Assembly: GCF_000744415.1 (NCBI RefSeq)
Contig: NZ_JQLW01000009.1
Span: forward strand, 124,001 to 188,000
From: Ghiorsea bivora
GTDB taxonomy: Bacteria; Pseudomonadota; Zetaproteobacteria; Mariprofundales; Mariprofundaceae
Reading direction: 5' to 3'
Length of the DNA stretch: 64,000 bases
Each line of letters begins with the position of its first letter. The first letter of the stretch is position 1. Shown here in pieces: positions 7,452-20,258 of this stretch. Below the pieces are notes generated by a model, which saw nothing but the letters and a program-made list of their open reading frames with translations, ran no database searches and was not told where the DNA came from. The translations under genes were made by a program, and so were the position numbers.

Positions 7452-8732
7452 TTAGACTATCATACCTGCGCCGACTGTATTGTTTGTGAATGCGTCGATG
7501 ATAATAAATGAACCCGTTGCTCTATTATCTTGATACGAATCACAGTTTAACGGCTGTTGTAATTTGAATGTAATCTGACCAATTTCATTCATCGCCAATG
7601 CATCGGCATCTTGCTTCTCAAGCGAATGAATATCACGCTTGAAGTCCACATTATCCACCAAGGCTTTGACTTGACGTGTTGTATGTTTAATCACGTATTT
7701 TTTGCGTTTTTCTAATGGTTCATCACCAATCCAACACACATTAGCGGTTAATGATTTCTCACCTGTGGTTTCCTCACCTGTATGCACCAACATATCACCA
7801 CGTGAAATATCAATATTATCATTCAGCGTTAAAGTAATACTTTGTGGCGCAAACGCTTCTTCTAAATTACCATCAAAGGTGACAATTTCTTTCACCGTAG
7901 AGCTTAGGCCTGATGGCACCACTGAAATTGCATCACCAACTTTAACTGTTCCCGATGCAATCGTACCCATAAAACCACGATAATCAGGCAAATCTGCTGT
8001 TTGTGGTCGATTGACCAACTGCACAGGCATACGGAAGGGTTTTTCGTCCAAATCATCCAACACAGACAAAGACTCCAAAGTCTCAAGCAATGTATTGCCC
8101 TCATACCAATCCATATGATTACCACGTATGGTCACCATATCACCCGTAAGTGCTGACATGGGTGTACAAATCAAATCTTTAATGCCTTGTTTGGCACAAT
8201 ATTCATCCATTTCTTCACGAATTTTCTCAAAAGTAGCTTGGTCATAATCCACCAAGTCCATTTTATTCACCGCCACAATCAAGTGCGGGATACCCAACAA
8301 ACCCAAAATATGGGTATGACGTTTGGTCTGCGCCAACACACCATGACGTGCATCAATCAAAATAATCGCAGCATTGGCAGTGGATGAACCCGTCACCATA
8401 TTACGCGTATATTGTTCATGCCCTGGGCAATCTGCCATAATAAATTTACGTTTGGGCGTAGCAAAATAACGGTATGCCACATCAATGGTGATACCTTGCT
8501 CACGCTCGGCTGAAAGACCATCGGTCAACATCGCCAAATCAATTTCTGCAGCTGAAGAAATAGTGGTTGTACCCTTCTTCTTACGCACAGCCATCAATTG
8601 ATCTTCAAATGCACCCTTGGTATCAATCAGAAGACGACCAATCAAGGTTGATTTACCATCATCCACACTGCCCACTGTCACCAAACGCAGCAGCTCAATT
8701 TCTTTTACGATGTCAAAATTTGCTTTAGTCAT
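7452..8732 (-). CDS. cysN: Sulfate adenylyltransferase subunit 1 (GTPase)
   Basis: GTPase subunit of ATP sulfurylase. GTP hydrolysis drives the CysD-catalysed activation of sulfate to APS. The 426-residue protein shows translation-factor GTPase motifs: P-loop GSVDDGKST (residues 21-29), EREQGITID, DCPGHEQYTRN and NKMDLV, followed by EF-Tu-like beta-barrel domains. No APS kinase (CysC) domain is fused at the C terminus, which agrees with an APS-type (not PAPS-type) CysH in the same operon. It is the last recognisable sulfur gene of the operon, separated from cysD by 146 bases holding a palindromic element. Confidence 0.96.
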   Translation of the reverse strand: MTKANFDIVKEIELLRLVTVGSVDDGKSTLIGRLLIDTKGAFEDQLMAVRKKKGTTTISSAAEIDLAMLTDGLSAEREQGITIDVAYRYFATPKRKFIMADCPGHEQYTRNMVTGSSTANAAIILIDARHGVLAQTKRHTHILGLLGIPHLIVAVNKMDLVDYDQATFEKIREEMDEYCAKQGIKDLICTPMSALTGDMVTIRGNHMDWYEGNTLLETLESLSVLDDLDEKPFRMPVQLVNRPQTADLPDYRGFMGTIASGTVKVGDAISVVPSGLSSTVKEIVTFDGNLEEAFAPQSITLTLNDNIDISRGDMLVHTGEETTGEKSLTANVCWIGDEPLEKRKKYVIKHTTRQVKALVDNVDFKRDIHSLEKQDADALAMNEIGQITFKLQQPLNCDSYQDNRATGSFIIIDAFTNNTVGAGMIV

Positions 8733-8774
8733 TTTTTCTTTCCTATTTAATCCACTAAAAATGATTCAGATTGC

Positions 8775-8860
8775 TTCTCAAGCGTTCAAGAGCAAAGCAA
8801 GCAAGCGTAGTGTGCTTTTGCACATAAGCATACTTGATGCTGCTATTGGATGCTTAAAAG
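8775..8860. repeat. Intercistronic palindromic element, copy 2
   Basis: It sits between cysD and cysN. The arms ctcaagcgttcaa and ttggatgcttaaa pair over about ten consecutive positions if G-U pairs are allowed, which suggests selection at the RNA level. The core has gagcaaag, GTGTGC-TTTT-GCACAT and the box gatgctgctattgg, matching the other copies. Confidence 0.65.
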
Positions 8861-8878
8861 GTGATATGCATTATTTTT

Positions 8879-9787
8879 CTAGAAGTAACCTTCTTTTTTC
8901 TTGTCTTCCATACTGTTAGAACCATGATCAATAATACGTGTTTCTCGCTCAGAACGACGCGATGCTGCTGCTTCAATCACAATTTCATCCATATTCGTTG
9001 CATCAGAACGCACCGCACCTGTACATGGGCTGCAGCCCAAGGTACGGAACCGTGACATGATCATTTTCGGTTCTTCACCTTCTAGGTACTGATCTTTATT
9101 TTCTTCATAATACGGAATCAGCATGTTACCACGTTCAATCATAGGGCGTTCTTTGGCAAAGTATAAAGGAACAATGGGGATATTCTCTTCGCGGATATAC
9201 GACCAAATATCCATTTCTGTCCAATTGGAAATTGGAAATACGCGCACCGATTCACCATCATGAATCCTACCATTATAAATATTCCATAACTCAGGACGTT
9301 GGTTTTTCGGATCCCACTGACCAAATTCATCACGCATAGAAAATACACGTTCTTTAGCGCGTGATTTTTCTTCATCGCGGCGTGCACCACCAAAAGCGGC
9401 ATCATACCCACCTTCTTCCAAGGCTTCTAACAATGCTCCAGTTTTTAATGCGCCACAACACCTAGCTACACCAAACTCTTTAGGGTTCATACCCTTAGCA
9501 ATCGCGTCTTCATTGCGGCGTACAATTAAATCAGCGCCAATTTCTTCACAAAAATTATCACGGAACTCATACATTTCCTGAAATTTAAAACCCGTATCCA
9601 CATGCAATAGTGAAAAAGGCAAAGGCGCTGGGTAAAAAGCTTTACGCGCCAAATGCACCAAAACTGACGAATCCTTACCCACCGAATACAACATCACTGG
9701 ATTACGAAACTCAGCTACCACTTCACGAATAATGTGAATCGATTCTGCTTCCAACGCTTTAAGTTGGGTTAACTTATGTTTACTCAT
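8879..9787 (-). CDS. cysD: Sulfate adenylyltransferase subunit 2
   Basis: Catalytic subunit of ATP sulfurylase. It transfers AMP from ATP to sulfate in complex with CysN. The 302-residue protein is a full-length member of the PAPS-reductase/ATP-PPase fold with the PP-loop SVGKDSSVL (residues 35-43), [27 protein letters not shown] and the C-terminal [14 protein letters not shown]. It lies 11 bases after the TusA-like gene on the same strand and ends just before a palindromic repeat. Confidence 0.97.
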
Positions 9788-10028: not shown

Positions 10029-10529
10029 CTATACAAAAATAATGTGTCCATTTTCTGATTCATTGAGGAAGGTGGCAACACCCACTACATCTTCAACTTC
10101 TTCAATCAAATCATCTCGCTCCAATTCTAAAATATGCAATGCCATTTCACATGCCAACAAACGAATACCAAGCGCATGTGCTGCTTCAATCAGCTCTGGC
10201 AAAGTCGCCACATTATGTTTTTTCATCATGCTGGTCATCAAGCTGGGGCTAGCACCACCAAAGTTCAAACGTGAAAGCGGAAGTTTATTGCGTCCACCCA
10301 ATAAAAAGTTAAATACTTTAGCCAAAATGCCTTTACCCAAGGCTTTACGCCCAAAATCTTTCTTGAGCACATTTAAACCCCAGAAGGTAAAAAACATGGT
10401 TACTTTTCGATTGGTTGCCGCAGCCCCAGTCGCCATGACAAATGCAGCCAATATTTTATCAAAATCACCACTGAAACATACAATGGTTAAGTCTTTCTTA
10501 TCTTGTTTGGCTTCTTCTTTTTCACTCAT
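10029..10529 (-). CDS. DsrE/DsrF/DrsH-like family protein (DsrE2-type)
   Basis: The 166-residue protein begins with a charged tail, then the DsrE-like fold (LTIVCFSGDFDKILAAFVMATGAA, VTMFFTFWGLNVL), with a basic region and a conserved Cys in RLLACEMALHIL near residue 130. DsrE2-type proteins usually sit beside TusA and pass sulfane sulfur between carriers. Here it lies 9 bases after cysH and 11 before the TusA-like gene. Its partner is therefore probably one of the two TusA domains of this operon, which is an inference from context. Confidence 0.8.
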   Translation of the reverse strand: MSEKEEAKQDKKDLTIVCFSGDFDKILAAFVMATGAAATNRKVTMFFTFWGLNVLKKDFGRKALGKGILAKVFNFLLGGRNKLPLSRLNFGGASPSLMTSMMKKHNVATLPELIEAAHALGIRLLACEMALHILELERDDLIEEVEDVVGVATFLNESENGHIIFV

Positions 10530-10538
10530 TTCAATCTC

Positions 10539-11237
10539 CTACTTCTTGATCGGGTTGGCATGCAAACCACATTCTGCCACCGCATCTTCTTGCTCCCACC
10601 ACCAACGCCCAGCTCTAGGGTCTTCTCCCACCGATATAGCACGCGTACACGGCGCACAACCAATCGATGGATAAAATTGATCATGCAGCGCATTATAAGG
10701 CACATCATGACTTTTGATATAATCCCACACATCTTGCGCTGTCCACATGATAAGAGGATTAAATTTCTTAATACCAAATGCCTGATCATCTTCCACAGCA
10801 TGCATATTTGCTCGTGAATCAGCTTGTTCTTGTCTAAGACCTGTCACCCATGCTTGCGCGCCACTTAAAGCCCGCTTTAAAGGTAAAATTTTACGTACAT
10901 GGCAGCATAACTTACGTTTTTCTACCGAGTCATAAAACAAATTCACACCGTCCTGTTTAATCATCTTTTCCACTTCTCTTGCATCTGGAAAGTATATGTC
11001 GATATCTAAGCTGCTTTTCTTACGCCATATTTGCATCACATCATAGGTTTCTTGTGGCAAACGACCTGTATCCAAACTGATAACCCGAATCGGAATATGA
11101 TGTTTATCCAGAAGGTCTAGTAACACCACATCTTCCGCACCAAAACTACAGGCAAATACAACATCACCAGCATAGTCTGCTACCGCCTGTTGCAACAATC
11201 CTAATGTATACTCCACCTTATCAGCCAATATATTCAT
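10539..11237 (-). CDS. cysH: Adenylyl-sulfate reductase (assimilatory, 4Fe-4S type)
   Basis: Reduces activated sulfate to sulfite using thioredoxin. The 232-residue protein has the PP-loop remnant ACSFGAEDVVL, LDTGRLPQET, the paired cluster ligands Cys111-Cys112 (KLCCHVRKI) and Cys194/Cys197 (GCAPCTRA), and the catalytic ECGLH near the C terminus (Cys223). The CC...CxxC set marks the [4Fe-4S] form that uses APS, matching the absence of CysC. It lies between the radical-SAM/SLC13 fusion gene and the DsrE-like gene, 9-15 bases from each. Confidence 0.94.
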   Translation of the reverse strand: MNILADKVEYTLGLLQQAVADYAGDVVFACSFGAEDVVLLDLLDKHHIPIRVISLDTGRLPQETYDVMQIWRKKSSLDIDIYFPDAREVEKMIKQDGVNLFYDSVEKRKLCCHVRKILPLKRALSGAQAWVTGLRQEQADSRANMHAVEDDQAFGIKKFNPLIMWTAQDVWDYIKSHDVPYNALHDQFYPSIGCAPCTRAISVGEDPRAGRWWWEQEDAVAECGLHANPIKK

Positions 11238-11252
11238 TTTTCACTCCCAACA

Positions 11253-13874
11253 TCAATAATAAAACCCTATCACTGGCCACCAATATTTTATGACCACTAA
11301 AAACATAAATAACGCTGTTAGTGATAAAATCGTACCATATTTAAGCATGTGTATAGGATTCACATAACCACTGGCATAAATCATAGCATTGGGTGGTGTA
11401 CCCATGGGTAACATAAAAGCAAAACCTGCAATAATACCTATTGTTAGCGCAATCACTACTGGTTCTATGCCCACAGCAGCGCCAACAGGCATGGCAATCG
11501 GTAAAACAATCGCTACAGCCGCTGCATTACTCACACTTTCCGTGAATAACAGTGTAATCAACACCAATAAAGCGATGAGTGCTAAACCCATCATGTCACC
11601 AGGAATAAGTGTATGCGCCAACCATGTTGCGGCACCTGTATCTGACAATGCTTTACCAATAGCAATCGCCCCACCATACATCAACACTACACCCCACTGC
11701 ACATGGGTTTCCACTTGTTTCCAATCCACCAATCGTAAAGCAAACATCAACACTACACTAACCAGTGCAATACTCGCTAGCGCACTGGCATGTCCTGCAA
11801 ACAACCATGCAATCACAGTACCTAACATTAAAAAGCTCATCATCCAGCCTTTAAAGGTTAATACACCCATCTCCAATCGCCTTTCAGCAAACTTATCTTG
11901 TACCACTTGCATATCCAGCTTCACACGCGACACCATGCGTAACAAAAGTATTGCTGCCACACACAACACACCAATCACCAGCGGCAAAGCTGCCAAGCTC
12001 CATTGCATAAATGAAAAGCTTTCACCTGTTAACTCACCAAGCAAAGCCAAAGCCAATGGTCCTCTAGCGCCACCCAACAAGGTTGCCACACCACCAATAA
12101 TTGCCCCCCATGCCAAGGCAAAAAATATAGCTTGTGCGTAAACATGACCTTTCCGCAAACCCAATGCTCGCACAATTTCCCATGCTATAGGCAAAAACAG
12201 AGCTGCCACTGCATGTTCAGGCATCACAAATGCCATCAATGCAGGCAAAAATAACATCACCATCAATAAACGTTTGGAACTACCACCTGTTTTTTTCAAC
12301 ACAAGCAATGCCAAACGTTCGGACAAACCACTCTGCATCACACCCGCAACCAGCATAAAGGCACCCAAAATAAAAAATACTGCTGGGTTACCAAAAAATG
12401 CAAACACAGCACTTGCAGGCAATACCCCCAAAACAGGTAACAAGGCCAGCCCCAACAATGAAGTAATAGGCAAAGGAAGCAGCTGAGTTACCCATAATAC
12501 CAAACACAATAAAAAGACCAGCAACGCATAAAAAGCAGAAGTACTCAACCCTTCAGGCGCGCCACTATATACCCCCCAAACAAACGCTATAGCCAACGCC
12601 ATTAGCGCCATAAAAGGTGCTATTTCCGTAAATAACAACCGGTGGATGGGTTGCGTTTGCCTGCCTTCCTCTTTGCGCCTTAAGTGGCGTCGAAGACCAT
12701 CTAACCAACCATCAACCTTACGCCCCAAAGGTGAGGTGCTCCAGCGTGTTGCTAAAGTTGCAGTACGGCTGCTATCTAACACACCACTTTCCATAGGGGT
12801 TAAAACACGCCCCATATCTCTTAATCGATGTGAAGGTATATTAGAAGTTTCCAGTAATGCATACTGCTCTAATAACGCAGCTTCGATATCATCTAGCGTA
12901 GAAATGTTTTGGTGTTCCAATGGGGTATTGGGCAGTGGTCGAAATGGAATCAATAAAGGTACAATGCCTTTATCCACCAGTACCTTCATACCATCAACTG
13001 TCGATGCCACAGGCTCTAAACCTACAATCAAGTGGCTCACCACAGTACCTGGTCTAAAAATACGCCGTGCATATTCTAAAGCTTTAAGGATTACATCTTG
13101 TCCGCCCTGCTTGGCTTTACCTGGGCAAACTTCTTTAAAGCGCGTGGCATCAAAAACTTCCAAGTTGCAGATGAAAATATCCAAACCCGCAGCATAAAGC
13201 GCATCAATCACGGACAAATCTTTAGGTGCAACGGTTTCTAAAGCAATCTGTCTATGTCCCAAGTGTCGACGTAGTAATGCAATCACTGGCAATAGTTTGG
13301 ATAAACCCACGTCAGCAGTAGGTGAAAAACCATTGTATAAATACACCGTATCAATATCGCGCTCAGCCAAAGCAGCCAGCACTACTTCTACCAGCTCTAA
13401 AGGGTCTCGCAGTGGTGGTTCTGCTTCATTCAACATAGAGTCATACTGACAATATGCGCATGCATCACTTTTATTAGCAAAAAATCCACAGCCCATAAAT
13501 GGTTGTAATATTAGAAGCTTATCATGCAAAGAGGCAAAACTACCCATACGTGAACCCTTACGCGTACGTTGTTTATAAAATGCGGGGGCTTCTATTAATT
13601 CTACGACCTCTTGTTCACCACCACATGCTAGCACAGCCTTGTTTCCATCTACGGAAAGCAGTGAAAAACCACTGTCTTCCGTATAAGGCTGCCCCACAGG
13701 CACAGAGCAAAAGTGCCCCGATGGTAACCGTAAATCCAACACCGTTTCTGCACCATTGGTTTGTGCAAGCCAACGTGAAGCTTGAGGCAAACCATTGGGC
13801 AATGCCAAACCTCGACTCACCAAAGAAAGCTTAGTTCGCCCAGGGTTAGAGAATGGGTGTAGGTCGTCAGTCAT
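11253..13874 (-). CDS. Radical-SAM-like domain fused to SLC13-type transporter
   Basis: The 873-residue protein has two unlike halves. Residues about 115-360 look like a radical-SAM TIM barrel (LILQPFMGCGFFANKSDACAYC), but the cysteines are spaced C129-x9-C139-x2-C142, not the usual Cx3Cx2C. Barrel strands follow (DTVYLYNGFSP, ALETVAPKDL, FICNLEVFDA, SHLIVGLEP). Residues about 415-873 form a polytopic SLC13/DASS carrier with the ESVSNAAAVAIVLP and MGTPPNAMIYASG substrate/Na motifs. Placed between sir and cysH in a sulfate operon, the carrier half is probably the sulfate importer. The role of the radical-SAM half is unknown. No stop or frameshift separates the halves. Confidence 0.8.
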   Translation of the reverse strand: MTDDLHPFSNPGRTKLSLVSRGLALPNGLPQASRWLAQTNGAETVLDLRLPSGHFCSVPVGQPYTEDSGFSLLSVDGNKAVLACGGEQEVVELIEAPAFYKQRTRKGSRMGSFASLHDKLLILQPFMGCGFFANKSDACAYCQYDSMLNEAEPPLRDPLELVEVVLAALAERDIDTVYLYNGFSPTADVGLSKLLPVIALLRRHLGHRQIALETVAPKDLSVIDALYAAGLDIFICNLEVFDATRFKEVCPGKAKQGGQDVILKALEYARRIFRPGTVVSHLIVGLEPVASTVDGMKVLVDKGIVPLLIPFRPLPNTPLEHQNISTLDDIEAALLEQYALLETSNIPSHRLRDMGRVLTPMESGVLDSSRTATLATRWSTSPLGRKVDGWLDGLRRHLRRKEEGRQTQPIHRLLFTEIAPFMALMALAIAFVWGVYSGAPEGLSTSAFYALLVFLLCLVLWVTQLLPLPITSLLGLALLPVLGVLPASAVFAFFGNPAVFFILGAFMLVAGVMQSGLSERLALLVLKKTGGSSKRLLMVMLFLPALMAFVMPEHAVAALFLPIAWEIVRALGLRKGHVYAQAIFFALAWGAIIGGVATLLGGARGPLALALLGELTGESFSFMQWSLAALPLVIGVLCVAAILLLRMVSRVKLDMQVVQDKFAERRLEMGVLTFKGWMMSFLMLGTVIAWLFAGHASALASIALVSVVLMFALRLVDWKQVETHVQWGVVLMYGGAIAIGKALSDTGAATWLAHTLIPGDMMGLALIALLVLITLLFTESVSNAAAVAIVLPIAMPVGAAVGIEPVVIALTIGIIAGFAFMLPMGTPPNAMIYASGYVNPIHMLKYGTILSLTALFMFLVVIKYWWPVIGFYY

Positions 13875-16332: not shown

Positions 16333-17154
16333 TTATTCGCCAAACTTCAATTCACAAGCTTGTTCATAAGTGACCAAATCTGTAATCGTTGGATTCTCAC
16401 CACACAATGGACATTGTGGATCTTTACGAAGTTTAAGCTTCTTCCATTCCATACGTAAGGCATCAAAAGTCATCAACTTACCTGATAATGATTCACCAAT
16501 ACCCAACAATTCTTTTACGGCCTCTACAGCTTGAATTGTACCCACAGCGCCTGCAAGCGCACCCAAAATACCCGCTTCAGAACATGATGGCACCAAACCT
16601 GTTGGTGGTGGCTCTGGATACAAACAACGGTAACATGGCCCTTCTTTATGCACATGGGGTTTATAAGTCGCCACTTGCCCTTCGAAACGGAACATCGCGC
16701 CAGAAATCAAAGGTTTCTTTTCAAAATAACATGCATCATTCACCAAAAAACGCGTTGGGAAGTTATCACAGCCATCAATGATTAAATCGTATTCAGAAAT
16801 AATGTCGCGAATATTTTCTTCAGTTACAAAATAGTTATACACATTCACTTTCACATCAGGGTTCAGCTCTTGCATGGTTTGTTTGGCTGATTCCACTTTA
16901 GGCATACCAACGCGTTTGGTATTGTGAATAATTTGGCGCTGTAGGTTTGAAGAATCCACAATATCTGCATCAGCAATACCAATCGTACCCACGCCTGCTG
17001 CTGCCAAATAATAGGCTACAGGCGAACCCAAGCCACCAGCACCAATCATAAACACTTTAGACTCAAGCAGTTTACTTTGCCCTTCAGCACCTACTTCTGG
17101 CAGGATAATATGACGCGAATAGCGTTCAATTTGTTCTTCTGTAAAATCAATCAT
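16333..17154 (-). CDS. MoeB/ThiF-family adenylyltransferase for sulfur carrier protein
   Basis: E1-like enzyme that adenylates the C-terminal glycine of a ubiquitin-fold carrier so that it can be thiocarboxylated. The 273-residue protein carries GAGGLGSPVAYYLAAAGVG (ATP site), DSSNLQRQ, the DGCDNFPTRFL motif and two CxxC pairs that bind zinc (CYRCLYP, CPLCGE). It lacks a C-terminal rhodanese domain. A MoaD/ThiS-like carrier gene lies 1.35 kb upstream in the same operon with cysK and a NIL gene between. Its likely substrate is that carrier and the purpose sulfur incorporation into cysteine or homocysteine rather than molybdopterin. This last point is inference. Confidence 0.88.
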   Translation of the reverse strand: MIDFTEEQIERYSRHIILPEVGAEGQSKLLESKVFMIGAGGLGSPVAYYLAAAGVGTIGIADADIVDSSNLQRQIIHNTKRVGMPKVESAKQTMQELNPDVKVNVYNYFVTEENIRDIISEYDLIIDGCDNFPTRFLVNDACYFEKKPLISGAMFRFEGQVATYKPHVHKEGPCYRCLYPEPPPTGLVPSCSEAGILGALAGAVGTIQAVEAVKELLGIGESLSGKLMTFDALRMEWKKLKLRKDPQCPLCGENPTITDLVTYEQACELKFGE

Positions 17155-17162
17155 GTTAACCC

Positions 17163-18095
17163 TTAAACCTCAATATTCTTAAATAAATCTGTACTCATAT
17201 ACCGCTCTGCCATGGATGGTAGAATCACAACAATACGTTTTCCCTTCATCTCACCCTGAGCCGCTACACGTAATGCTGCAGCAACTGCTGCACCTGAAGA
17301 AATACCCCCCGGAATACCTTCTTCATCTGCCAAACGACGTGCCATGGCAAAAGCATCATCATTGCTCACCTGCTCCACACTATCCACAATATCCCTATTC
17401 AAGTTCTTAGGGATAAAACCAGCACCAATACCTTGGATTTTATGTGGTGATGGTTCACCACCTGAAAGCACTGGTGAGTCTGATGGTTCTACCGCAATCG
17501 CTTTAAAATCTTTATTGCGTGATTTTAATACTTCTGCAACACCAGTGATTGTACCACCAGTACCCACACCTGCGACAATCGCATCCACATTACCACTACA
17601 ATCTTTCCAAATTTCTTCAGCCGTGGTTTGGCGGTGAATTTCAGGATTCGCTGGGTTATCAAATTGTTGCGGCATAAAACCATTCTCAATCGTTGTAACC
17701 AACGCTGTAGCCTTGGCAATTGCACCCTTCATACCCAGCGACGCAGGTGTTAATACCAATTCAGCCCCGAGCAACTTCAAAAGCTTACGGCGCTCTATAC
17801 TCATTGACTCAGGCATGGTTAAAATACATCTGTAACCTTTCGCACGAGCCACAAATGCCAATGCAATGCCAGTATTCCCTGAAGTTGGTTCTACAATCGT
17901 ACCACCATCTTTAAGTAGGCCTTTGGCTTCAGCATCTTCAATCATGGCTTTACCAATACGGTCTTTGACCGAATTCAGCGGGTTAAAAAACTCACATTTC
18001 ACCAATATTTCAGCATCCAAGTCTGCACCAATGCGATTCAAACGAATCAGTGGTGTATTGCCAACGGCTTCTGCTGCATTGTTATAAATCGCCAT
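17163..18095 (-). CDS. cysK: Cysteine synthase (PLP, O-acetylserine sulfhydrylase family)
   Basis: Replaces the acetyl (or phosphate) group of an activated serine with sulfide or a thiocarboxylate to give cysteine. The 310-residue protein is full length with the PLP lysine in NSVKDRIG (near residue 43), [14 protein letters not shown], the PLP-phosphate loop [11 protein letters not shown] and [13 protein letters not shown]. It lies 8 bases before moeB and after the NIL gene. The presence of a MoeB and a ubiquitin-fold carrier leaves open a CysM-like use of carrier thiocarboxylate as sulfur donor. Confidence 0.93.
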
Positions 18096-18123
18096 AACCT
18101 ACTCCTTGCCCAAGCTTGAAGAA

Positions 18124-18366
18124 TTAACCTTCAATAATACCCTGCTCAATAGGCTCCACATGTATACCATCTTGTGCTTCAAGCCACTTCACAGCAGCTT
18201 CAACCACTTCTGTTTCACCTTCAATTTCAAGTCCAACCAAACCCATATCTTCTTTGACTTCCGCTGTACGAATATTGGTGATAACATCAAATTCTTTCGC
18301 CAATTTCCAAATCACTGGTTCAGTTACTTTTTCTTTGTCAAAATTCAAATACACACGTAATTTCAT
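18124..18366 (-). CDS. NIL-domain protein
   Basis: An 80-residue protein made only of a NIL (ferredoxin-like, ACT-related) domain: KLRVYLNFDKEKVTEPVIWKLA, then IRTAEVKEDMGLVGLEIEGE, ending in a VEAAVKWLEAQDGIHVEPI segment. NIL domains occur at the C terminus of the methionine importer MetN and in archaeal homocysteine synthesis proteins. The start at 18366 is preferred to a GTG at 18375 because AGGTGG lies 5 bases before it. Between a sulfur carrier gene and cysK under a SAM riboswitch, a role in homocysteine/methionine synthesis or its allosteric control is plausible but unproven. Confidence 0.8.
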   Translation of the reverse strand: MKLRVYLNFDKEKVTEPVIWKLAKEFDVITNIRTAEVKEDMGLVGLEIEGETEVVEAAVKWLEAQDGIHVEPIEQGIIEG

Positions 18367-18380
18367 ATCATCCACCTATT

Positions 18381-18504
18381 CTAAAGTTATATTTTTGTTC
18401 TCATGCAAGGCATGGTAAGTGCGAGAAGGCCAGCATACTTTTCTAATATGTGAGCATCACAGCACTTATCTTAACGCCGCAATGGGATAAAAAGATAGCT
18501 TTAG
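18381..18504. repeat. Intercistronic palindromic element, copy 3
   Basis: It fills the gap between the carrier gene (stop 18506) and the NIL gene. The arms ctaaagttatatttttg and the complement of the right end, ctaaagctatctttttat, match with G-U-type changes. The core has gcaaggc, a 9-bp stem GGTAAGTGC/GCACTTATC not seen in the other copies, tgagca, and the box aacgccgcaatggg. Confidence 0.6.
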
Positions 18505-18505
18505 T

Positions 18506-18784
18506 TTAGCAGCCACCAGCGATGGCGGGCACGATGGATACTTCATCATTATCCTTAAGCGCCGTATTACGACCGTCTAGAAAACGCACATCTTCGTCAT
18601 TCAAATATACGTTTACGAAACGACGAATTTCACCGTTATCATCACACAAACGTTCTTTCATACCTGGGTGTGCTGCTTCCAAGTTATCAATCAACTCACC
18701 AATCGTTGTGCCTTCAATTTTCACTTCATCTGCACCACCGGTAAGTTTACGTAGTGGGGTTGGGATACGAACTGCTACTGTCAT
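18506..18784 (-). CDS. MoaD/ThiS-family sulfur carrier protein ending GGC
   Basis: A 92-residue ubiquitin-fold protein with a MoaD-like layout: VAVRIPTPLRKLTGGADEV, GTTIGELIDNLEAAHPGMKERL, VNVYLNDEDVRFLDG and the C-terminal SIVPAIAGGC. Carriers of this family need a terminal Gly-Gly to be adenylated by MoeB/ThiF. Here an extra Cys follows, so a peptidase would have to remove it, as reported for some CysO/HcyS/QbsE-type carriers. AGGAG stands 8 bases before the ATG. Position between a ThrC-type enzyme and NIL/cysK/moeB suggests it supplies sulfur for amino-acid synthesis. Confidence 0.85.
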   Translation of the reverse strand: MTVAVRIPTPLRKLTGGADEVKIEGTTIGELIDNLEAAHPGMKERLCDDNGEIRRFVNVYLNDEDVRFLDGRNTALKDNDEVSIVPAIAGGC

Positions 18785-18825
18785 GTTATACTCCTATCAA
18801 AATATTATTAACTTTACTTTAAACC

Positions 18826-18927
18826 TCAGCATGAAGTATTTATTACGAGTGCAAATGCAAGGCGTGCAGTGTGCGTATTTGCACATGAGCACCTTAATTG
18901 CAGCAATCGCTCAAATATACATGCTGA
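18826..18927. repeat. Intercistronic palindromic element, copy 4
   Basis: It lies between thrC (stop 18929) and the carrier gene. The arms tcagcatg...gtattt and the complement of the right end, tcagcatgtatattt, pair. The core holds gcaaggcgtgcagtgtgc, the hairpin GTGTGC/GCACAT also present in copy 2, tgagca, and the box attgcagcaatcg. Confidence 0.6.
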
Positions 18928-18928
18928 C

Positions 18929-20173
18929 TTATTTCACGCCGTCGGCTTCTGCCAATACGTCGAACTCTTTTAAAGATGCACCAATCACGCGTGGTTTCGC
19001 CACTTCATTGATGACTGCTTCCTGTGTCTTCAAACCATTACCCGTAATACAAATTACGATGGACTCATCTTTAGGTAGCTTACCTGATTCAAGCAATTTA
19101 ATGGTACAACCCAAAGTCACACCACCTGCAGTTTCTGCAAAAATACCTTCCGTTTCTGCAAGTAACTTCATCGCATCAATGACTTCTTCATCACTCACGT
19201 CTTCACACCAGCCACCACTTTCTTTAATCACACGGTTGGCATAAAAACCATCTGCTGGATTACCAATCGCCAAAGACTTGGCAATGGTGTCTGCTTTCAC
19301 AGGATGAATCATATCTGTACCATCTTTCACTGACTTAGAAATCGGTGAACAGCCTGTAGCTTGTGCACCATAAACCGCGGTACCATTATCTTCAATCAAA
19401 CCAAGTTTGATAAATTCCTTGATGGATTTATCAATTTTGGTGCAAAGTGAACCGGATGCCATAGGCACAACCACGTGTTTTGGTGCTTTCCAGCCCAATT
19501 GCTCCATGATTTCATAACCCATAGATTTAGAACCTTCCGCATAAAATGGACGCACATTCACATTCACAAATGCCCAACCATATTTACCTGCCACTTCAGA
19601 ACACAAACGATTCACATCATCATATTGACCTTTAATACCAATAATATTGGTGCCGAAAATACCTGCACCCAGCACTTTACCTTGCTCCAAGTCTTCTGGA
19701 ATAAATACATACGACTCCAAACCTGCTGCTGCCGCATTCGCAGCCACAGAACCCGCAAGGTTACCCGTGGATGCACATGCCACAGTTTTAAAACCAAACT
19801 CAACAGCTTTGGATAATGCCACTGCCACCACACGATCTTTAAATGATAATGTTGGATAACAAACCGAGTCATTTTTAATATAAAGCTCTTTCACGCCCAA
19901 AGCTTTGGCAAGACGATCCGCTTTCACCAATGGTGTAAAACCATTGTTTGCGCCCACTTTTGGTTCACCATCAATCGGCAAAAGCTCTTTATAACGCCAC
20001 ATATTTTGTGGACGTGACTCAATCAACTCGCGGGTAAATTTACCCTCAAGCTTTTCATAATCATAAACCACTTCCAATGGACCAAAACAAAACTCACAAA
20101 CGTGGGTCGGTTCAATCGGATATTCTTGACCACACTCGCGGCATTTAAGGGCTCGAACTATACTTTCACTCAA
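18929..20173 (-). CDS. thrC: Threonine synthase-type PLP enzyme under SAM-riboswitch control
   Basis: Threonine synthases convert O-phosphohomoserine to threonine. This 414-residue protein has the N-terminal zinc ribbon (CRECG...CEFCFG), the PLP lysine in PTLSFKDRVVAVALSKA, ACASTGNLAGSVAANAAAAG, QATGCSP and ETAGGVTLGC. The start is put at a TTG (20173) with AGGAG 6 bases upstream, not at the ATG at 20215 that lacks a Shine-Dalgarno and would add 14 residues. Being the first gene after a SAM riboswitch, in front of a sulfur carrier and a NIL gene, it may instead make homocysteine from O-phosphohomoserine. The sequence alone cannot decide. Confidence 0.85.
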   Translation of the reverse strand: MSESIVRALKCRECGQEYPIEPTHVCEFCFGPLEVVYDYEKLEGKFTRELIESRPQNMWRYKELLPIDGEPKVGANNGFTPLVKADRLAKALGVKELYIKNDSVCYPTLSFKDRVVAVALSKAVEFGFKTVACASTGNLAGSVAANAAAAGLESYVFIPEDLEQGKVLGAGIFGTNIIGIKGQYDDVNRLCSEVAGKYGWAFVNVNVRPFYAEGSKSMGYEIMEQLGWKAPKHVVVPMASGSLCTKIDKSIKEFIKLGLIEDNGTAVYGAQATGCSPISKSVKDGTDMIHPVKADTIAKSLAIGNPADGFYANRVIKESGGWCEDVSDEEVIDAMKLLAETEGIFAETAGGVTLGCTIKLLESGKLPKDESIVICITGNGLKTQEAVINEVAKPRVIGASLKEFDVLAEADGVK

Positions 20174-20258
20174 TGTTATCTCCTGTGCAAAAAAGCGTCC
20201 TTCTTTGCGGAACATTATTCTTTCTTTTAATCAAACTTTTTATACGGAATCCGAAAAC

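Follow-up and report, generated by a model that had tools for sequence, protein, structure and literature searches.

Radical-SAM enzymes are generally regarded as soluble proteins. Among described members of the superfamily, the closest to the protein considered here is the Nit1C radical-SAM protein (MSMEG_0568, TIGR04043; COG2516, biotin synthase-related), and a literature search found no assigned reaction either for the Nit1C members of the variant_rSAM family or for COG2516. This protein belongs to the same NF045502 family as the enzyme half of our protein, is homologous to it over residues 53–342—the strand-rich N-terminal part included—and has the same CX9CX2C motif. However, the two are about 20–25% identical, and our protein lacks the CGxCGAC tail and nitrilase gene context of the Nit1C protein and contains two cysteines not found there (C236 and C250), as well as the carrier domain. 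Biotin synthase, lipoyl synthase, and HydE-type enzymes have a similar barrel fold at 15–19% identity, but the auxiliary-cluster cysteines of the known enzymes of these types were not recognized in the enzyme half.

With respect to the other half, the DASS/SLC13 transporters VcINDY and human NaS1, NaDC3, and NaCT have in common with it a whole-length match to TIGR00785 and the predicted fold; our protein differs from them in having PEH in place of the first SNT motif, GGAR in the facing loop, and an N-terminal enzyme domain. Both SNT motifs of VcINDY take part in substrate binding and in the Na1 and Na2 sites; for the exchanger LaINDY, it has been proposed that side chains of Arg and His stand in for Na+ ions (PMC7553777). 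As for gene context, sulfur-assimilation operons of the ThiS/E1/SirA type were predicted in 2006 (Genome Biol; PMC1779556, table row 4e). Like the operon described below, they bring together a ThiS-like carrier, a ThiF-like E1, TusA/SirA, PAPS reductase, sulfite reductase, and a transporter; the present operon differs in containing a DASS rather than an ABC transporter, in the fusion of TusA to sulfite reductase, and in the added radical-SAM domain. A literature search for a fusion of a radical-SAM domain with a transporter found no description.

The window—that is, the whole 64,000-nucleotide stretch analyzed—belongs to a genome of 2.15 Mb, and the nearest orthologs of the protein come from Ghiorsea, a zetaproteobacterium. 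Zetaproteobacteria are iron-oxidising marine bacteria. An earlier note on this DNA had described an uninterrupted 873-codon frame at 11253–13874, joining a radical-SAM-like domain to an SLC13 transporter. Both the coordinates and the length proved exact, with the correction that the frame, which begins with ATG, is encoded by the minus strand; the plus strand contains many stops there. With a probability of roughly 0.55, the encoded protein combines a carrier of the sulfate route with a competent radical-SAM enzyme located at the inner face of the membrane and performing a SAM-dependent step in the same sulfur route. The features on which this reading is based are listed in Table 1.

Table 1. 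Features of the fusion gene and its operon, with window coordinates
Feature	Position	Strand	Basis or remark
rSAM-DASS fusion gene, 873 aa	11253..13874	-	Fused orthologs and purifying selection
Radical-SAM domain, residues 1-365; strand-rich N-terminal part (about residues 36-123), then barrel	12780..13874	-	PF04055, NF045502, AlphaFold2, Foldseek
C129, first Cys of CX9CX2C	13488..13490	-	55/55 sequences spanning C129; also in Nit1C relatives
C139-A-Y-C142, second and third motif Cys, aromatic residue before the last Cys	13449..13460	-	Invariant
C236, end of barrel strand, CNLE motif	13167..13169	-	56/56 spanning sequences; absent from Nit1C relatives
C250, CPGK motif	13125..13127	-	56/56 spanning sequences; absent from Nit1C relatives
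Linker helix, residues 382-406, basic, amphipathic	12657..12731	-	AlphaFold2 helix (low confidence there); hydrophobic moment vs shuffles; net charge +2 to +5
DASS/SLC13 carrier domain, residues 415-873	11256..12632	-	TIGR00785, PF00939, Foldseek
P552-E553-H554, replacing VcINDY S150-N151-T152 (first SNT motif, Na1 site)	12213..12221	-	Alignments
G601-G602-A603-R604, loop opposite first hairpin tip (GSPP in VcINDY)	12063..12074	-	Alignments
S782-N783-A784, second SNT motif, mostly kept	11523..11531	-	Alignments
Siroheme sulfite reductase with C-terminal TusA domain (NIR_SIR, TusA), 777 aa	13880..16213	-	5 bp upstream of fusion gene; conserved neighbor
CysH-type APS/PAPS reductase	10539..11237	-	Next gene downstream of fusion gene
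DsrE2-type sulfur carrier	10029..10529	-	Largely conserved order
CysD and CysN, sulfate adenylyltransferase	7452..9787	-	Translations named by inspection; conserved order
ThiF/E1-like, CysK/M-like, ThiS-like carrier (18506-18784), ThrC	16333..20215	-	Conserved order

The N-terminal half was found to belong to the radical-SAM superfamily, as the earlier note had supposed. Pfam PF04055 (Radical_SAM) matches residues 138–286 with 32.4 bits (gathering cut-off 29.5), and NCBIfam NF045502 (variant_rSAM) matches residues 64–330 with 172 bits (curated cut-off 125); a stand-alone enzyme from a split-gene relative scores 157 bits against the latter profile. The AlphaFold2 model of the domain, built on 27 related sequences, has a mean pLDDT of 86 and a pTM of 0.85. 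Its best solved structures in Foldseek are HydE, LipA (lipoyl synthase), and BioB (biotin synthase), with E-values of 6.5e-9 to about 1e-5, and a profile search of PDB sequences returned lipoyl synthase at 1e-7 over residues 137–302. Two more specific assignments were rejected: the Nit1C radical-SAM family (TIGR04043), given a score of 88 bits against the required 303.7, a cys operon in place of Nit1C neighbors, and the absence of the C-terminal CGxCGAC; and the lipoyl synthase LipS2, given a score of 17.9 against a cut-off of 270 and a genuine LipA encoded elsewhere in the genome. Searching plasmids with the enzyme domain yielded distant matches only, with about 25–27% identity among the matches listed and, where annotated, mostly the name MSMEG_0568 family; such matches occur on 369 Klebsiella and 30 Escherichia plasmids.

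The motif cysteines C129, C139, and C142 occupy the positions given in the earlier note and are present in 55 of the 55 sequences spanning them. The description of this set as unusual has to be withdrawn, because Nit1C relatives carry the same CX9CX2C, making the spacing a family trait. The best reading is that one [4Fe-4S] cluster would be bound via this motif. A second cluster of the Nit1C kind is unlikely, because the C-terminal CGxCGAC is missing. C236 and C250 are the only invariant cysteines of the enzyme half outside CX9CX2C; judging from their position at or just after a barrel strand, they may be near the active site. In LipS2, a second [4Fe-4S] cluster is held by three additional cysteines, C85, C276, and C279 (PMC9585515). 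C56 was rejected as a cluster ligand, being Ala or Val in some members. Furthermore, N237 and E239 at a barrel-strand end, G285, and a P-F-R-P strand are invariant or nearly so, and these residues, together with the kept motif cysteines, are as expected for a working rather than a decayed enzyme. Since the motifs are intact and strongly constrained, the enzyme half is likely an apparently intact, catalytically competent radical-SAM enzyme.

The complete DASS/SLC13 carrier that the earlier note saw in the C-terminal half is well supported: this half matches TIGR00785 with 263 bits against 198.6, over positions 2–444 of 444, PF00939 matches as well, and residues 448 to 866 align with VcINDY. Foldseek with the full-length model retrieved NaDC3, NaCT, NaS1—including sulfate-bound human NaS1—and VcINDY, the best TM-score to the target being about 0.8. 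The two SNT motifs of Na+-coupled DASS cotransporters are represented by PEH and SNA. Na+ coupling is doubtful, because the first motif is replaced by Pro-Glu-His, and the carrier probably does not use the standard two-Na+ mechanism; by analogy with LaINDY, the His of PEH and the Arg of GGAR may serve as fixed positive charges. From the operon context, sulfate or a closely related oxyanion is a plausible substrate of the carrier. Another set of stand-alone DASS proteins (L102–L109) was observed in which GEHTVAA occupies the position of the usual first SNT motif and GGARN that of TPPN.

The linker helix between the halves has a counterpart in the stand-alone enzymes of split relatives, in which a basic amphipathic helix is retained as the C-terminal tail; the amphipathic signal, measured as hydrophobic moment against shuffles, is clear in most, not all, sequences. 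Because the positive charge adjoins the first membrane helix, a cytoplasmic location of the enzyme half is suggested. The full-length model (pTM 0.54) contains no confident interface between the enzyme and carrier halves.

The survey of close relatives, within Pseudomonadota, yielded 56 distinct orthologs besides the window: 48 fused sequences, a few of them cut off by contig ends, and 8 scored as split. In one of the latter (L035:8001-10620, from a polished assembly), the frame is broken inside the carrier half, which looks like a frameshift error, so the genuine split cases number seven rather than eight (G048, G056, G088, G132, G140, G260, and G275), each with the two genes adjacent. The search for the same fusion in other genomes proposed in the earlier note was successful: rather than a one-off, the fusion is a trait of Mariprofundales-type Zetaproteobacteria that is also present as two adjacent genes. 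The dN/dS values, 0.035–0.057 for the enzyme half and 0.078–0.124 for the carrier half, indicate purifying selection on both. The note had allowed that relatives with two separate genes could reveal the joined frame as an assembly or read-through error; fused as well as split relatives were found, the former in the majority. Nothing but the split relatives speaks for such an artefact, which the 48 distinct fused orthologs and the low dN/dS across the join rule out almost entirely. The fusion is genuine and is kept across the Zetaproteobacterial lineage.

The split forms are also relevant to the proposal that enzyme and carrier have separate jobs and are joined only through translational coupling, without functional meaning. 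Several of the seven split pairs overlap stop and start as TGATG or ATGA, such that a small change at the junction could interconvert the two states, and in the tree of both domains the fused/split state changed at least twice, although weakly supported branches would allow a single change. This proposal is nevertheless improbable, considering that the fused form predominates in the lineage, that the two genes remain neighbors in all split cases, and that the basic helix is kept in fused and split forms alike.

The placement of the gene within a sulfate operon, as stated in the earlier note, was confirmed, with sulfite reductase/TusA upstream, CysH downstream, and all genes on the minus strand. 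In Zetaproteobacterial loci long enough to show it, the order is ThrC, ThiS, CysK, ThiF, SiR/TusA, rSAM, DASS, CysH, DsrE2, CysD, CysN, although some loci lack CysH or DsrE2 or have it at another place; in almost all of the sufficiently long loci, rSAM-DASS lies between SiR/TusA and CysH or CysD. In four Mariprofundus-type loci (L026, L030, L038, and L039), the stretch from DASS to CysD was found to contain no CysH. The ThiS-like carrier of the window ends in Gly-Gly-Cys, so the terminal residue would need removal before a thiocarboxylate forms at Gly-Gly. DASS need not be the sole sulfate carrier, since genes for an EI24/CysZ-family protein and for two SulP proteins are present in the host genome as well; no CysT-type ABC permease above the cut-off was found in this genome.

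Outside the Zetaproteobacteria, one genome (G001, the single genome recovered from its class) has an operon of ThiF, CysH, SiR/TusA, and ATP sulfurylase followed directly by a stand-alone DASS (L101:49-6583), with no radical-SAM gene. A SiR-TusA-type fusion is also present in this operon (L101:1662-3962). The G001 DASS has the same PEH and GGAR motifs as the fusion carrier, and the occurrence of such a carrier in an operon without the enzyme ties it, on the evidence of one genome, to sulfate assimilation. The same genome suggests that the radical-SAM enzyme is an addition in the Zetaproteobacteria.

Radical C–S cleavage of sulfonates in anaerobes uses glycyl-radical enzymes. One conceivable function is that the carrier imports an organosulfur dianion, from which the radical enzyme cuts a C–S bond to give sulfite for the neighboring sulfite reductase. 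The adjacent sulfite reductase gene fits such a function, as do the organic dianions accepted by DASS carriers (PMC7553777) and the radical C–S cleavage of sulfonates in anaerobic bacteria described in PMC6453916. However, sulfate activation (CysD, CysN, and CysH) is encoded in the same operon, the G001 carrier has the same motifs without the enzyme, and none of the operon's genes was recognized as a known sulfonate gene, leaving this function with a small probability.

The earlier note had suggested that transport is linked to an unknown modification step or to sensing via SAM, both of which are hypotheses. In a reading of the second kind, the radical-SAM half would act as a sensor or gate, with SAM level, cluster state, or redox state controlling transport so that the end product limits sulfate entry. 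The fusion partner being a carrier and not a pathway enzyme is in favor of this, and the G001 pathway, working without the enzyme, would allow for a regulatory add-on. Yet every motif that catalysis would be expected to require is preserved, constraint is stronger on the enzyme half than on the carrier, and the two separate proteins of the seven split genomes show that a covalent gate is not needed. A gate of this kind is therefore rather unlikely, and a catalytic role in the same route is ranked first, a SAM- or cluster-dependent gate second, and sulfonate cleavage third.

According to the preferred catalytic reading, the product would be an inner-membrane protein with two domains, encoded within the sulfate-assimilation operon. 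Its C-terminal DASS carrier would most likely serve the transmembrane transport of sulfate or a similar oxyanion, with a mechanism that is probably not the standard two-Na+ one, and its N-terminal variant_rSAM (COG2516/Nit1C-like) enzyme, with one [4Fe-4S] cluster bound via CX9CX2C, would be held at the cytoplasmic face by the basic amphipathic helix. Sulfate has no C–H bond, so the target of the enzyme would have to be a different molecule of the route, unless the enzyme's role is regulatory; in the predicted reaction, a small molecule or a carrier protein belonging to this sulfur route would undergo a SAM-dependent radical step close to the entry point. The G001 operon counts against this reading in that the pathway can exist without a radical-SAM gene. 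More tentative is the proposal that the enzyme and the secondary anion transporter form one working unit, with radical chemistry and sulfate-route transport coupled by channelling or gating across the Zetaproteobacteria; we consider it possible.

Both parts of the protein are of known kinds; the papers searched describe no single protein that unites them, as this one does throughout a lineage. The fusion provides a new context for the variant_rSAM family, and the natural fused and split versions make the need for joining directly testable. Overall, a lineage-wide, strongly constrained fusion in a cysteine operon suggests that Zetaproteobacterial sulfur assimilation includes a previously undescribed step or control point.
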